A stretch of 64,000 bases of DNA. Origin: Rheinheimera aquimaris. GTDB taxonomy: Bacteria; Pseudomonadota; Gammaproteobacteria; Enterobacterales; Alteromonadaceae. Below the pieces are notes generated by a model. It was not told the origin of the DNA and did no database searches. It was given only the letters and a program-made list of their open reading frames with translations. The first letter of the stretch is position 1. The number at the start of each line of letters is the position of its first letter. Below, piece by piece: positions 20,079 to 26,410 of the stretch. The stretch spans positions 186,001 to 250,000 of the forward strand of contig NZ_JAJAVQ010000004.1 of assembly GCF_020531985.1 (NCBI RefSeq), read 5' to 3'. The translations under genes were made by a program, and so were the position numbers.

Positions 20079-21413
20079 TTGTTATCGATATTACTTGTAG
20101 ATGATGACCGCGAATTTACTGACGTTGCCAGTCACATCATCGACTTTTTAGGGCACACGGTGTCTGTTGCCGCCAATCTGGAGGAAGCAACAGAATGGCT
20201 GCAGCACAACAACTTTGACCATATTCTGTTGGATTTCATGCTGCCGGATGGCAGTGGCATCCATTTGATGGACCGGGTGCAGCAGCTGTTTCCGGTACCG
20301 AAAGTGACTTTTATCACCGGCCACCCGTCGGTTAAATCGATCATTGCTGAGCTTTGCGGGCCCAAGGTTGATTATTTGCTTAAACCTATTCAGCGCGAAG
20401 CGCTGGAGCAAGTGCTTAGCCCGGGCAAAGCTAAAATCAAAAAAGCTGCTGCAAACCAGGTTAAAAAGCACTTTGATTGTTTGATCGGTGAGTCTGAACC
20501 GATGCAGCAACTGTATACCATGATAGAGCGCGTTGCGGCGTCAAATGCTAATGTAATGCTGATGGGCGAGAGTGGTGTAGGGAAAGAGGTTGTTGCGTCT
20601 GCCATTCACACTGCCAGCAAAACGGCCGGCCCACTGGTTGCAACTAACTGCGGCGGCTTGTCAAAAGAGCTGATCGGCAGTGAACTGTTCGGCCATGAAA
20701 AAGGCGCTTTTACCGGTGCTGTTGCGCAAAAAGCCGGGGTGTTTGAACGGGCGCAGGGCGGCACGTTATTTCTGGACGAAGTAACCGAAATGCCGCTGGA
20801 CATGCAGCCGAATTTATTGCGGGTGCTGGAAACGAAGAAGATTATCCGTGTTGGCGGCAGCAAAGAGATCGCCGTCGATTGCCGGGTAGTGTCGGCTACT
20901 AACAGAAGCATGCAGAATATTGCCGAGCAGAATATTTTGCGTGAAGATATTTACTTTCGGCTGGCAGTGTTTCCGATAGAGATCCCACCGCTGCGCGAAC
21001 GATCCGAAGATATTCCATTACTGGCAAAAGCATTTCTGGCCAGTTTAAACGAAGAGAATAATACGGATTATCACTTAACTGACGCCCAGCTACAGCGGCT
21101 GGCCAGCTTTGACTGGCCGGGTAATGTCAGGGAGCTGCGTCACACTATTCACCGTGCTTATATCATGAGCGATCCGGCAAAAAAAGAAATTGAGCTGCCA
21201 GTCTCTTTTGCATCACCCTTTTCGGCGGTGAAAAAAGAGCAGACAGGGCTGACACCCGGTAAGACGATAGAGGAAGTTGAAAAAGAACTCATTTATCTGA
21301 CGCTGAAAAAAGTCAATGGTAACAAAACCTTGGCTGCCGATATGCTGGGTGTCAGTGTTAAAACCCTGTATAACCGCTTAAATGCGTATGGCGGCCTGGG
21401 CGAGTTTAGTTAA
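20079..21413 (+). CDS. Sigma-54-dependent response regulator (NtrC family)
   Basis: 444 residues: receiver domain (1-115) with acidic pocket VDDD and phospho-acceptor Asp in LLDFMLPDGSG; AAA+ sigma-54 activator domain (about 140-370) with Walker A GESGVGKE, the sigma-54 contact loop GAFTGA, and Walker B GGTLFLDEVTEMP; and a C-terminal Fis-type helix-turn-helix (NKTLAADMLGVSVKTLYNRL). All motifs needed for ATP-driven opening of sigma-54 promoters are intact. The start is TTG at 20079, because an in-frame TGA lies two codons upstream and the receiver begins at once. First gene of a five-gene signalling operon; the likely partner kinases are encoded downstream. The target promoters are unknown. 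Confidence 0.9.
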   Translation: MLSILLVDDDREFTDVASHIIDFLGHTVSVAANLEEATEWLQHNNFDHILLDFMLPDGSGIHLMDRVQQLFPVPKVTFITGHPSVKSIIAELCGPKVDYLLKPIQREALEQVLSPGKAKIKKAAANQVKKHFDCLIGESEPMQQLYTMIERVAASNANVMLMGESGVGKEVVASAIHTASKTAGPLVATNCGGLSKELIGSELFGHEKGAFTGAVAQKAGVFERAQGGTLFLDEVTEMPLDMQPNLLRVLETKKIIRVGGSKEIAVDCRVVSATNRSMQNIAEQNILREDIYFRLAVFPIEIPPLRERSEDIPLLAKAFLASLNEENNTDYHLTDAQLQRLASFDWPGNVRELRHTIHRAYIMSDPAKKEIELPVSFASPFSAVKKEQTGLTPGKTIEEVEKELIYLTLKKVNGNKTLAADMLGVSVKTLYNRLNAYGGLGEFS

Positions 21414-21435
21414 GTTTGCAAACAGGGGAAGACGG

Positions 21436-21645
21436 ATGGCCGACATCACGCCGGAAAAGTTAGCACAACAAATCCATGATATCCGTAAGCCGTTAAACCG
21501 AATCTCAATGCAGGCTGAACTCATCAAGTTGGTGCTGGAAAATAATTTACCACCAGAGAAAGCGATAGAGGCGGTGGATAAAATACTGCAGTCCTGTCAG
21601 GACTGTAGTCATTTACTGCAAAGCCTGTTAGATACCTCGCCATGA
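21436..21645 (+). CDS. Free-standing HisKA-like (DHp) domain protein
   Basis: A 69-residue protein that consists almost wholly of a histidine-kinase dimerisation/phosphotransfer-like helical hairpin. Helix 1 carries an H-box, QQIHDIRKPLNRISMQAELI, with the histidine at about residue 14; helix 2 is EKAIEAVDKILQSCQDCSHLLQSLL. No ATPase domain follows. ATG at 21436 has AGGGGA about 7 nt upstream; the open frame begins earlier at 21382 but overlaps the regulator gene. It sits 22 nt after the sigma-54 regulator and 23 nt before the CHASE3 kinase, so it is part of the operon. It might relay phosphate or alter kinase dimers, but this is inference. Confidence 0.72.
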   Translation: MADITPEKLAQQIHDIRKPLNRISMQAELIKLVLENNLPPEKAIEAVDKILQSCQDCSHLLQSLLDTSP

Positions 21646-21668: not shown

Positions 21669-23147
21669 ATGCCAAAACGTGTGTTCGATAGTGCGCGTGC
21701 CAGCTGGTTTTTGTTGGGGGCTGTCATGATGTGTCTGATTGCTTTCAATGGTTATCTTGCTGTTAGTTCAATTAAAGAGCTAAGTAGTACGCAAACCAGC
21801 CTGACCAACACCGGCGACATTATCACCAAGCTAAACAACTTACATTTGTCCGTATTGTCTGCCGAGTCTGGTCAGCGGGGATACTTATTAACTGACGACG
21901 AATTATATCTTGAGCCTTATCAGGACGCATTAAAGCAGGTAAGGGCACAGGTTGCAGATGTTAAAACTATAGCGTCTGAGATGCCTGAGCAGCAGCTGCG
22001 CATCAACGAGATAATCCGGCTCAGTGAGGCCAAAATAGCAGAACTGACAGAAACGGTAGAATTGGCACGACAAGATAAAGAAATACTGGCGCTTAGATTG
22101 CTAAAAACAGATCGCGGACAGAATATCTATATGGAGCTGCGTGCTTTATTTGAAGTTGCAGGTCAAACTGAAAAGTCCTATCGTGAGAACTTGTTTAAGC
22201 GCCTGTCGAAAGGTCGAAAAGACGCGCTGCTGAATTTTATTCTATCTGGTGTGTTAAGCAGTGTGCTGGTGATATTGATGCTGGTGTTATCTTCAATAAG
22301 TGTCAGAAAAGAGCGTAAATATCTGGATGCGCTGGAACAGCAAAATGAAACCCTGACGGTTAAAGTAGAGGAACGCACCCAGGAACTACGCCTGTATTCA
22401 GAGGAATTAAGCAGAAGTAACAGAGAACTTGAAGACTTTGCCTTTGTTGCATCGCATGATTTGCAGGAACCACTTAGAAAAATTCAGGCATTTGGTGACA
22501 GGTTGGAATCGTCGTTCAGTCAGGATTTAGGTGAAAAGGGGTTGGATTATCTGAAACGGATGCGCAATGCAGCCAACAGAATGTCATTGCTGATTAATGA
22601 CCTATTGGATTTCTCCCGTATCAATACCCGCGGCAGAGACTTTGCTGACACAAACCTGACTGATGTCGTTAACGAAGCATTGGATGATTTAGAAATCGCT
22701 ATGCAGGAAAGCGGTGCTGAGGTAAATACCGATAATTTGCCCGTTATTCAGGCGGATAATAGCCAACTTCATCAATTGTTTCTTAATTTGCTGTCAAATG
22801 CGATTAAGTTTCGCAAACCGGACACCGCACCGGTTATTAGTATTACTGTGGCTAGTCACGAGCCAAACATTATGCAACAAGCCATCTGCGACAATTGGTA
22901 TCATATAGAATTTAAAGACAACGGTATTGGCTTTGCGGAGGAATATGCTGAAAAGATTTTTACACCGTTTCAGCGTTTGCATGGACGCTCAGAATACAAG
23001 GGGACCGGAATTGGCCTGGCGGTGTGCCGGCGCATAGTTGAGCGCCATCGTGGGTTGATTTACGCATCAGGTGAACCGGGTACCGGCGCCACCTTCACTT
23101 TAATTTTGCCTGCCGATGCCACACCATTTGGCAGCAAAGGAGACTAA
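21669..23147 (+). CDS. CHASE3-domain sensor histidine kinase
   Basis: Membrane-bound kinase of 492 residues. One N-terminal transmembrane helix (about 12-32), a periplasmic CHASE3 domain (about 35-180, with the typical SAESGQRGYLLT), and a second helix (about 190-212) are followed by a coiled-coil linker, a HisKA domain (FVASHDLQEPLRKIQAFG, phospho-His) and a HATPase domain with N-box NLLSNAIKF, DNGIGF and GTGIGLAVCRR. The DLQEPLRKI H-box is the type found in phytochrome-like kinases that pair with small receivers. The gene two bases downstream encodes such a receiver. The signal sensed is unknown. Confidence 0.92.
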   Translation: MPKRVFDSARASWFLLGAVMMCLIAFNGYLAVSSIKELSSTQTSLTNTGDIITKLNNLHLSVLSAESGQRGYLLTDDELYLEPYQDALKQVRAQVADVKTIASEMPEQQLRINEIIRLSEAKIAELTETVELARQDKEILALRLLKTDRGQNIYMELRALFEVAGQTEKSYRENLFKRLSKGRKDALLNFILSGVLSSVLVILMLVLSSISVRKERKYLDALEQQNETLTVKVEERTQELRLYSEELSRSNRELEDFAFVASHDLQEPLRKIQAFGDRLESSFSQDLGEKGLDYLKRMRNAANRMSLLINDLLDFSRINTRGRDFADTNLTDVVNEALDDLEIAMQESGAEVNTDNLPVIQADNSQLHQLFLNLLSNAIKFRKPDTAPVISITVASHEPNIMQQAICDNWYHIEFKDNGIGFAEEYAEKIFTPFQRLHGRSEYKGTGIGLAVCRRIVERHRGLIYASGEPGTGATFTLILPADATPFGSKGD

Positions 23148-23149
23148 AT

Positions 23150-23611
23150 ATGCCACTGACTAAAGCCCGCCCCATTACTATCCTGATGGCGGATGATGAC
23201 GAAGACGATCGTTTGTTAACACAGGATGCGCTGCGCGAAAGCCGGGTGCTTAACTCACTGTATTGTGTTGAAGACGGTGTCGAACTGCTGGAGTATCTGC
23301 GTAAGCAGGGCAAATATGCTATCGGTGCACCATGCCCCCGGCCAAGTTTAATTCTGCTTGATTTAAATATGCCACGTATGGACGGCAGGGAAGCGTTACG
23401 TGCGATTAAAGATGACGAGAATTTACGTGGTATTCCGGTGGTTATATTGACTACCTCTAAGCAAGAAGAAGATATGGTAAGGGGTTATAATCTGGGCGCG
23501 GCGTCTTACATTACTAAGCCGGTTAACTTTGACGGCCTGGTTGAGCTGATGCGCACTTTGGGCAAGTACTGGGTTGAATTTGTCGAGTTACCAGAACAAG
23601 ACGATGACTGA
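23150..23611 (+). CDS. Rcp1-like single-domain response regulator
   Basis: 153-residue stand-alone receiver with acidic pair MADDDEDDRLLTQ, phospho-Asp in LILLDLNMPRMDGREAL, switch residue T in VVILTTSKQEEDM, and the conserved lysine in YITKPVNFDGL. The insert between beta strands (QGKYAIGAPCPRP) is typical of the Rcp1 subfamily that accepts phosphate from phytochrome-like or CHASE3 kinases. It has no output domain, so it passes phosphate or acts by protein contact. It lies 2 nt after the kinase gene and overlaps the next gene by 8 nt. Confidence 0.9.
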   Translation: MPLTKARPITILMADDDEDDRLLTQDALRESRVLNSLYCVEDGVELLEYLRKQGKYAIGAPCPRPSLILLDLNMPRMDGREALRAIKDDENLRGIPVVILTTSKQEEDMVRGYNLGAASYITKPVNFDGLVELMRTLGKYWVEFVELPEQDDD

Positions 23612-25580
23612 GTTATTAAAGCCGATTGTCCGTGCCAACATCCTGTTAGTTGAGGATGATGAAGATGACTACATAATTACCCGAAGCCATCTTGATGATT
23701 TAGTGTCACTAGACTGCCAGCTGACATGGGTTACCAATTCAGCTGACGGTTTGCGCAAGCTAACCGAAGGCTACTTTGATGTGTGCTTGCTGGACTATCA
23801 ACTGGGGGCCGAAACAGGCTTGTCTTTATTAAAGCAAGCCTTTGATGCTGATATATCAACACCAATCATTATGCTTACCGGTCAGCCAGACAAGCAGCTT
23901 GACCTGCAGGCTCTAGAGTACGGTGCTGCAGACTTTCTGGTAAAAAGTGAACTGACAGAAGCGCGGTTTGCCAGGGCAATACGCTATGCGTTGAGCAGAC
24001 GCGAGTTTGAACTTGAACGTATGAATCGGATGCAGCTTGAAGCCGATAACAGATCAAAAGACCGTTTTCTGGCCCACCTGAGCCATGAGCTCAGAACGCC
24101 GCTATCTTCAATACTGGGTTATACCGAGTTACTACTGGAGTCGGATACAGCAAAGGACGCCAGACCAGAGCTAAATATTATTCTGAGCAATGGCAAGCAT
24201 CTGCTGAGTTTGCTAAACGATGTGCTGGACCTGTCTAAAATAACCGCTAATAAACTGGAACTGCGACCAGAGCCAACCAGTTTACGGCATGTCTTACTTG
24301 ATATCTATACCCTACTTAAAGTAACGGCGGTCGATAATGGCTTAACGCTGACTGTCAACTCATTAACCACTTTACCGGTTCTGATAACGGTTGATGGTAC
24401 CCGGCTGCGACAAGTACTGATAAACCTGATTTATAACGCGATTAAATTTACTGAAAGTGGCGGCATTACGGTTGACTTATGGGTGCAGCAGGAAAGCAAC
24501 AGAGAAATGCTATATTTCCGAGTCACCGATACCGGCGTCGGTATTCCCACCGGGCAGCTAAAAGACATTTTTGCCCCCTTTATGCAAGTCGAGGATTACC
24601 TGACAAGGAAAAAAGGCGGTGCAGGCTTAGGTTTAGCCATTTCTGCAGAGCTGATCCAGCGGATGGGCGGCAGCATAGATGTTGTCTCTGAAGAGCAAAA
24701 AGGCAGTGTCTTTACGTTTTGCGTCGACCCGGGCGATATCAGTGATACGCAGAGATGTTATTTTAATCCGGAGCAACAGCTTATAGACAGCGGTAGCAGA
24801 CAGGATAAATTGACGCTGGCAGGCGAAGTACTGATTGTCGACGACCTGGAAGACTTACGTAAGCTTGCCAGTTACTGGGTAAGTGCGACCGGAGCTAGCG
24901 TTGATTTGGCAGAGAACGGTTCTGAGGCTATTGAGAAAGTAAAACGCAAGCAGGAAACAGGAAGCAGTTATAGCTTGATCCTGATGGACTTACATATGCC
25001 GGATATTGACGGGCGCGAGGCAACAACCGTGATTCGCAAGCTTGGCTATCAGTATCCGATTGTGGCGCTAACAGCTGCTATGGCAAAAGGCATTAAGCAG
25101 CAGCTCGCGGGTCTGGGTTTTAATGATGTATTGTCGAAGCCAGTAACAAAGCATCAGCTTTATCGCATGTTACGCTCGTATTTAACGAGCCCTGCACTAT
25201 CTGCTTCTACCGCGGTATCTGAAGATAAACCATTGCATTTTCTGGTCGTTGAAGATGATGCTGAAGCTGCTCAACTGATGCAGATACTGCTGCAGAACCT
25301 TGGCGTTAATGTAACCTTGGCGCAAAGTGCGGAAGAGTGTATGCAGCTGCTAGCATTGCATCATCACTTTGACCGCATTTTGCTGGATATGGGCCTGCCC
25401 GATTGCAACGGCTTGCAACTGGTTGAACGTATAGAGCATAGCTATCCTGAGAATGTTGTCATTATTGTCAGTGGCCACGATTATGAACCGGCTGTATCGT
25501 CCAGCGCTATAGTGCAGCAAAGCGTTGTAAAGCCGTTGAGCAAACAAACACTGAGTCAAATTGTGGCCACATGCCGTTGA
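23604..25580 (+). CDS. Hybrid histidine kinase, REC-HisKA-HATPase-REC-REC
   Basis: 658-residue cytoplasmic hybrid protein with no transmembrane segment. Order: receiver 1 (about 8-125; LLVEDDEDD, Asp in CLLDYQLG), HisKA (about 150-215; LSHELRTPLSSILGYTELL), HATPase (NLIYNAIKFTESG, DTGVGIP, GAGLGLAI), receiver 2 (about 410-530; Asp in ILMDLHMPDIDG) and receiver 3 (about 545-655; Asp in ILLDMGLPDCNG). ATG at 23604 overlaps the upstream stop; a TTG at 23574 would add ten residues but has no better ribosome binding site. Input probably comes from another kinase through receiver 1. Last gene of the signalling operon. Confidence 0.92.
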   Translation: MTELLKPIVRANILLVEDDEDDYIITRSHLDDLVSLDCQLTWVTNSADGLRKLTEGYFDVCLLDYQLGAETGLSLLKQAFDADISTPIIMLTGQPDKQLDLQALEYGAADFLVKSELTEARFARAIRYALSRREFELERMNRMQLEADNRSKDRFLAHLSHELRTPLSSILGYTELLLESDTAKDARPELNIILSNGKHLLSLLNDVLDLSKITANKLELRPEPTSLRHVLLDIYTLLKVTAVDNGLTLTVNSLTTLPVLITVDGTRLRQVLINLIYNAIKFTESGGITVDLWVQQESNREMLYFRVTDTGVGIPTGQLKDIFAPFMQVEDYLTRKKGGAGLGLAISAELIQRMGGSIDVVSEEQKGSVFTFCVDPGDISDTQRCYFNPEQQLIDSGSRQDKLTLAGEVLIVDDLEDLRKLASYWVSATGASVDLAENGSEAIEKVKRKQETGSSYSLILMDLHMPDIDGREATTVIRKLGYQYPIVALTAAMAKGIKQQLAGLGFNDVLSKPVTKHQLYRMLRSYLTSPALSASTAVSEDKPLHFLVVEDDAEAAQLMQILLQNLGVNVTLAQSAEECMQLLALHHHFDRILLDMGLPDCNGLQLVERIEHSYPENVVIIVSGHDYEPAVSSSAIVQQSVVKPLSKQTLSQIVATCR

Positions 25581-25831
25581 TTTTTAGTCAGTTAAATGAA
25601 GGTCTCTGAGCAGTTTATTCAGTTTGGGCGATGTAAATAATTCCCACTGCTATGTTGGTATTACACTGTGTTAACGCCACGGCATTAGTCGCATCCTGCA
25701 TAATATGCTTTTAAGTTTTTGAAAATATTTAAATTATTTCCATCCTCATCGCTGGCATAAAGCTTGTAATAAGGTAACTGACTTCAAGCCAACAGGCTGT
25801 TAGTTATCTTGTGCATTTTATGGAGGCTACA

Positions 25832-26410
25832 ATGAAAAAATCTTATCTGGCTGCATTAACGGTTTCTGCGCTTTTCCTTTCCTCTGCTCATGCTGCTCCG
25901 GGTGATGATATTGACCATATGGGTATTTATGTCGGCGCTGGCTATGGTTTGCTAAATGTTGATGGTGACGACGAAGATTTTGATCGCGAAGACAATGCTA
26001 CCCGCATCTTTGCTGGCGCCCAATTTAATCAGGCTATCTCGTTAGAGGGTGGCTATATCGATTTTGGTAATTATGGTAACAGCGTATTTAACACGGATTT
26101 AGACGGCTACACCTTAGCGCTGAAAGCTGGTTTACCGGTGTCAGATCGTTTCACTGTGTATGCTCAGGGCGGTAATATCTGGTGGAAAGCTGATATTAAT
26201 GCGACCGATGACAATGATGATGTTGACGGTTCAGATATTTTCTACGGTGTTGGTGTCTCGTTTGCGCTGACGGAGAATTTAGACTTGCGTCTGGATTACA
26301 CTCGTTTCGATGTTGAGTTTGACCGCGATGAAATAGGCATTCTGGCTGAAATTGATAACTTCGACACTAAAGTCGACTACGCCAGCTTAGGTATCCAGTA
26401 TACGTTCTGA
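25832..26410 (+). CDS. Outer-membrane beta-barrel protein (OmpA/OmpW-like porin family)
   Basis: 192-residue protein with a clear Sec signal (MKKSYLAALTVSALFLSSAHAA, cleavage after AHA). Alternating strands follow (YVGAGYGLLNV, ATRIFAGAQFN, LEGGYIDFGNY, LALKAGLPV, YGVGVSFAL, LRLDYTRFDV) ending in LGIQYTF, whose terminal Phe is the usual barrel C-terminus. Loops are strongly acidic (DGDDEDFDRED, DDNDDVDGSD), perhaps binding cations. ATG at 25832 has an ideal GGAGG. A 250-bp AT-rich gap separates it from the signalling operon. It is a small porin or adhesion-type barrel; the exact role is unknown. Confidence 0.8.
   Translation: MKKSYLAALTVSALFLSSAHAAPGDDIDHMGIYVGAGYGLLNVDGDDEDFDREDNATRIFAGAQFNQAISLEGGYIDFGNYGNSVFNTDLDGYTLALKAGLPVSDRFTVYAQGGNIWWKADINATDDNDDVDGSDIFYGVGVSFALTENLDLRLDYTRFDVEFDRDEIGILAEIDNFDTKVDYASLGIQYTF

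Follow-up and report, generated by a model that had tools for sequence, protein, structure and literature searches.

Within the 64,000-nucleotide stretch of Rheinheimera aquimaris DNA analysed here (the window), Pfam assignments give five genes in the order NtrC-type regulator, DHp protein, CHASE3 kinase, single-domain receiver and hybrid kinase. Together, these genes supply five receivers (the regulator's included), two complete kinases, one extra DHp and one transcriptional output. The features, each with the evidence for its assignment, are as follows.

20079 to 21413, + strand: NtrC-type response regulator with REC, sigma-54 AAA+ and Fis HTH domains, the constant partner (Pfam, co-occurrence)
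21424 to 21429, + strand: Shine-Dalgarno-like AGGGGA (sequence)
21436 to 21645, + strand: stand-alone DHp (HisKA) protein of 69 amino acids (sequence, Pfam, alignments, AlphaFold2)
21475 to 21477, + strand: codon of the invariant His14, presumed phospho-acceptor (sequence and alignments)
21669 to 23147, + strand: CHASE3 histidine kinase, complete with HisKA and HATPase (Pfam)
23150 to 23611, + strand: single-domain receiver (Pfam)
23574 to 25580, + strand: REC-HisKA-HATPase-REC-REC hybrid kinase (Pfam, three receiver stretches); the ORF opens at a TTG and the real start probably lies further downstream

The DHp gene runs from an ATG through 69 codons to a TGA stop, beginning 22 bases after the stop of the upstream gene and ending 23 before the start of the next. 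A mechanical ORF list had placed the start at 21382, an ATG within the upstream gene, which gives 87 amino acids; as the first start codon available in the seven closest relatives (L002-L008) is the equivalent of 21436, 69 amino acids is the correct length. The protein matches the Pfam family HisKA (PF00512) over residues 14-68 with E=2.8e-8 (34.1 bits against a cut-off of 26.9), its sole match above cut-off, and neither HATPase nor Hpt families are among the Pfam matches listed at E<=10, a level at which the HMMER filters remove most weak matches. No ATPase domain lies between the DHp and the next gene, which encodes a separate and complete CHASE3 kinase. AlphaFold2, run on the monomer, returned two long helices (residues 6-35 and 40-67; mean pLDDT 91), and the C-terminal end follows directly after helix 2 with no degenerate ATPase-like domain. 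These data confirm that the DHp-only architecture is real and without an ATPase domain, as the first-pass annotation had held in describing an orphan DHp of 69 residues.

Structural and other database comparisons added little to this assignment. The best four Foldseek rows for the model were chains of LvrB and HK853, which contain DHp domains (E 0.18-0.25), the fifth was unrelated and no row reached E<=0.001; E values this weak are expected for so short a hairpin. Since VIA-align also ranked unrelated helical hairpins as high as kinases, the fold match goes no further than being consistent with a DHp. Searching solved structures by sequence produced no significant match (an unrelated protein came top at E 0.03; EnvZ had 0.38), NCBIfam matches all fell far below cut-off, PHROGs matches were weak (best E 0.004), and the protein had one match in its own genome.

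We identified relatives of the DHp protein in two partly overlapping, and thus not independent, sets of genomes. A pattern scan of genome contigs yielded 27 relatives (loci L002-L028) among 83 pattern-matching stretches, and in all 27 the DHp frame measures 67-96 codons from stop to stop. Applied to a family sample of 295 genomes, a profile made from the resulting 28-sequence alignment matched 89 at E<=0.001: 85 carry a short-frame DHp of at least 57 bits, and four (G012, G118, G181 and G202) have long-frame kinases only, at no more than 23.3 bits. We dropped these four, together with surplus kinase rows from G018, G019 and G278, before the family count. Samples of the order (394 genomes), class (369) and phylum (299) gave, respectively, three genomes outside the family (G329, G412 and G436), no new genome, and one new genome, G1176, which carries the whole operon (L129). 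Over the four profile searches, true members scored at least 57 bits in frames of at most 124 codons, and all other matches at most 34.6 bits in frames of at least 173 codons.

The regulator follows the same distribution. Its orthologues, defined by E<=1e-130 among the best five candidates scored per genome in the same sample of 295, scored at least 468 bits and occupy exactly the 85 genomes that carry the DHp protein, leaving an empty symmetric difference. Under a loose limit in 41 relatives, regulator scores fall from at least 746 bits to at most 304 with no intermediates; the regulator-bearing genomes G1270, G1277, G1279 and G1282 of that search lie outside the co-occurrence comparison. In all 87 main-clade loci fetched, the DHp gene is directly downstream of the regulator gene, at a median distance of 16 nt (range -101 to 122, with 13 overlaps, when start codons are picked by a simple rule). 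The tie is therefore one-to-one over 85 genomes, and the link to an NtrC-type regulator that was read from the window by itself extends to every one of these loci.

The full five-gene operon is present in 84 of the 87 main-clade loci, and its receivers and kinases are intact. The regulator keeps Asp52, two acids and Lys102 in 85 of 86 aligned loci (L097, where the regulator is split, is outside the alignment), the remaining locus being a gap. The His and three ATPase-domain residues of the CHASE3 kinase are kept in 85/85 aligned loci, the two acids, Asp and Lys of the single-domain receiver in 84/84, and the phospho-acceptor Asp of the hybrid kinase's three receivers in 82, 84 and 84 of 85, the rest being gaps. 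Departures at active-site positions of the aligned loci are of three sorts: gaps, a single unreadable residue, and conservative exchanges, Thr/Ser or Glu/Asp for example. The hybrid kinase lies in two frames in the fetched sequence of L097, L098 and L099, as does the regulator of L097, which may reflect sequencing error, gene fission or decay.

The three exceptional loci indicate that the constant unit is the regulator-DHp pair, not the kinase. L095 lacks only the single-domain receiver, and in L107 one CHASE3-HisKA-HATPase-REC-REC hybrid takes the place of the downstream genes. In L112, a GGDEF-EAL protein and a protein with no Pfam match adjoin the pair, and the 13 kb fetched contain no match above 60 bits to the operon kinases. 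A second regulator-DHp pair lies beside a complete operon at L118 (genome G009).

A second clade of twelve loci (L116, L117 and L119-L128) comprises more distant stand-alone DHp proteins scoring 59-67 bits. In 12/12 of these, the DHp gene sits directly behind that of a REC-GGDEF protein (a diguanylate cyclase), an architecture for which Pfam was run on three of the twelve. Among the seven second-clade loci whose neighbours were listed, none has a kinase within the same operon; L121 and L128 have hybrid-like genes nearby on the opposite strand, and L117 has one about 3 kb off on the same strand.

Next, we considered the residues of the DHp protein. His14 is kept in 83/83 distinct main-clade and 12/12 distinct second-clade sequences (counts by clade that omit the second-copy L118 and L129), so that the loss of the histidine, which the first-pass annotation named as refuting, was not seen. 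His, Arg, Asn and Glu are invariant across both clades, and in the alignment of 28 the invariant set is H14, R17, N21, I23, S24, M25, A27, E28, K31, I50, C57, S58 and L61. In ATP autokinases the acid at H+1 is the general base; in HisKA kinases Thr or Asn at H+4 is the phosphatase residue, and H+7, H+11 and H+12 are receiver-contact positions. Among the 83 main-clade sequences, H+1 is D in 79 and E in one more, H+4 is K, G or A in 68 and N in 8, H+8 is R in 62, H+11 is M in all, and H+12 is Q or N in 78. In the second clade H+1 is N, S or R in 10/12, the acid thus missing, and all twelve sequences have N, S, L and H at H+4, H+8, H+11 and H+12, respectively. The commonest DHp residues at H+7, H+11 and H+12 are N, M and Q, unlike those of the two operon kinases (R, A, F and T, G, Y).

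The expectation that the orphan H-box would outdo those of the operon kinases in conservation was rejected: mean identity from H-1 to H+20 is 0.755 for the DHp protein against 0.82 and 0.792 for the kinases (85 loci, with L107 and L112 left out). A branch-wise test of co-change between DHp columns and 12 operon domains in 83 sequence sets (L095, L097, L107, L112 and one of two identical loci being omitted), in which few changes fell near the His, raised no domain clearly above controls and singled out no receiver; the fraction of pairs with z>3 was 0.0021 for the regulator REC, 0.0025 for the AAA+ control, 0.0046 for the single receiver, 0.0032 for CHASE3 and 0.0082 for the regulator HTH. The DHp genes of close relatives are under purifying selection: of the 15 pairs formed by the window and five close relatives, nine have dN/dS values of 0 to 0.143 and six have a saturated dS. 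Low dN/dS and the co-occurrence with the regulator place the gene beyond chance; its relatives are equally short, and the protein is conserved, as the first-pass annotation supposed.

The DHp protein shares its H-box and helix hairpin with HisKA sensor kinases, the best long-frame kinase reaching 34.6 bits with the DHp-family profile, and differs from them in having neither sensor nor HATPase. The seven long-frame kinase loci examined are of several kinds and gave no indication of a common parent. A close functional parallel is with LuxO-LuxU of Vibrio, where several kinases feed a response regulator that likewise has a small histidine phosphotransfer protein dedicated to it. LuxU is encoded beside LuxO, which is of the sigma-54 type, and has the Hpt fold; the DHp protein is instead of the HisKA/DHp type, with no Hpt family among the matches listed, and the regulator of the window scores 313.5 bits against an NCBIfam LuxO cut-off of 800. 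In its architecture, the protein can also be set beside ChpT, PhyT and Spo0B, which keep a degenerate ATPase-like domain where the window protein has none; the structure of ChpT has a paper of its own (PMC3433190).

LuxU is referred to as the phosphotransferase preceding LuxO (PMC12471899), and PhyT, Spo0B and ChpT as phosphotransferases derived from histidine kinases (PMC5898713, PMC9981736). According to the latter two sources, these proteins act as DHp-type His carriers without kinase activity between two receivers. The DHp protein has in common with them the invariant His at the phospho-acceptor position. Stand-alone HisKA proteins are already a recognised annotation class: P2CS defines a 'phosphotransfer protein' by HisKA or Hpt present with REC and HATPase absent (PMC4618731), a description that the DHp protein fits, and P2CS-based surveys count stand-alone HisKA proteins under this name (PMC4618731, PMC9953108, PMC3018481), one giving 1014 genes for the class (PMC3018481). 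The class is an annotation bin of mixed members, whereas the DHp protein belongs to a single family of orthologues whose regulator partner is fixed. A marine two-component survey treats Hpt proteins as relays (PMC6365647), and phosphorelays were reviewed in 2025 (PMC12189002). In the open-licence literature, judged by titles, the starts of abstracts and selected passages, we found no paper on this family.

An invariant His, the missing ATPase domain, the bond to the regulator and the changeable kinases are together best read as marking a phosphotransfer protein for the regulator. We put the probability that the DHp protein is a dedicated minimal histidine phosphotransfer protein for the adjacent sigma-54 regulator at roughly 0.55. 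The hairpin would dimerise into a four-helix bundle which, as it has no ATPase domain, would be unable to phosphorylate itself. One of the two complete kinases would charge a receiver of the operon, either the single-domain receiver or one within the hybrid kinase, and the charged receiver would pass its phosphate to His14 and from there to Asp52 of the regulator. The phosphorylated regulator may then switch on target promoters, for instance the one driving the neighbouring outer-membrane gene. Because the DHp gene is right behind the regulator gene in every relative examined, the protein probably hands phosphate to the regulator encoded just upstream.

Three mechanisms had been put forward in the first-pass annotation, namely phosphotransfer between receivers, dimerisation with a kinase of the operon and sequestration of the sigma-54 regulator. 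The constancy of the regulator-DHp pair, the exchangeability of the kinases and the second clade with its REC-GGDEF regulator favour the first of these over kinase binding and sequestration. Several features count against a phosphorelay. No donor receiver is evident within the 13 kb fetched for L112, the single-domain receiver is missing from L095, and the N at H+4 in all of the second clade and 8/83 of the main clade would be compatible with phosphatase activity. To these come the co-change test that picked out no partner receiver, the D at H+1 in 79/83 main-clade sequences and an H-box no more conserved than those of the kinases.

The DHp protein could instead be a kinase adaptor, with His14 phosphorylated by the ATPase domain of an operon kinase, either in trans or within a mixed dimer. 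The DHp protein would then redirect that kinase to the sigma-54 regulator, making a receiver intermediate unnecessary. The acid at H+1 in nearly all of the main clade makes phosphorylation by another kinase's ATPase domain possible, and two complete kinases lie downstream in 84/87 loci. We nevertheless consider this unlikely, given that most of the second clade has lost that acid, that the seven second-clade loci listed have no kinase in the same operon (though L121 and L128 have hybrid-like genes close by on the opposite strand), that L112 has no kinase-like neighbour, and that the receiver-contact residues of the DHp resemble those of neither operon kinase. It is also rather improbable that the protein is a brake instead of a donor, its dimer binding the receiver of the regulator so as to block or discharge it. 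An attachment to the regulator rather than to a kinase would suit such a role, as would the second-clade N at H+4; yet mere binding would not require an invariant His, and the HisKA phosphatase residue is absent from most main-clade members. Also in favour of a brake, PhyT is said to sequester PhyR as well as to pass phosphate to it (PMC5898713). That the gene is a functionless, decayed remnant of a full histidine kinase, from whose DHp the fold surely descends, is suggested by the missing ATPase domain alone and is refuted to a near certainty by relatives that are equally short, dN/dS of at most 0.143 in 9/9 computable pairs, four residues invariant over two clades and 85/85 co-occurrence with the regulator.

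Returning to the phosphotransfer reading, candidate targets of the regulator were sought among sigma-54-like sites. Two features of the window are relevant.

25753 to 25768, + strand: sigma-54-like -24/-12 site before an OmpA-like gene, candidate target (2 mismatches, conserved block)
25829 to 26410, + strand: gene for an OmpA-like beta-barrel of the outer membrane, which the regulator may target (Pfam)

The OmpA-like gene adjoins the operon in some relatives. In the window and in six related loci of its type, the block TGGYAYAAAGSTTGTAA lies ahead of the outer-membrane gene, and two further loci have a looser form of it. The sigma-54-like pattern occurs 61 times in the window against 53 expected, which is not above chance. 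A scan of the loci, which are related to one another, with a home-made consensus score gave 164 raw matches. Of these, 20 follow the hybrid gene and 13 are divergent from the regulator; 7 precede the regulator and 4 the outer-membrane gene, and the other 120 lie elsewhere. In seven loci (L085-L088 and L091-L093) an ExoD-family gene, assigned by Pfam in the one checked, is divergent from the regulator and has a TGGCAC-type sigma-54-like site; in seven loci such sites lie 181-354 nt before a small lipoprotein-like gene beside the operon, the one checked having no Pfam match. These candidate sites hint at an envelope-related regulon.

A separate observation concerns an Escherichia coli IncC plasmid, pB39_C (NZ_OQ420468.1; L137, 4877-6117), where shortened copies of the regulator (residues 81-444, 75% identity) and the DHp (residues 1-39, 72%) lie beside erm(42); a Tn3-family transposase lies ahead of the regulator-DHp copy, and one of the IS91 family lies beyond erm(42). 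The arrangement looks as if a related stretch of chromosome had moved onto this resistance plasmid, and it could bear on the origin of erm(42). L053, from the genus of the window, contains at 1-1682, upstream of the operon, a stretch of about 1.7 kb that is 99.8-100% identical to the floR/LysR-regulator stretch of pB39_C and some 3.5 kb upstream of the regulator gene.

A protein this short readily ends up annotated as hypothetical or as an incomplete kinase. Given the one-to-one association over 85 genomes, wiring diagrams of this regulator that omit the DHp protein are probably wrong. The family offers a small system for asking how a fragment of a kinase comes to serve as a dedicated relay of phosphate, and for what reason certain diguanylate cyclases own a DHp protein as well. 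A broader proposal, to which we give slightly less than even odds, is that the regulator possesses its own detachable, DHp-only histidine port, that the two are inherited strictly together, that the residues near the His changed with the diguanylate-cyclase partner, and that exchangeable kinases and receivers feed one output through it. If so, few phosphotransferases of histidine-kinase descent would be smaller than the DHp protein, which would represent a route by which regulators gain independence from their cognate kinase.
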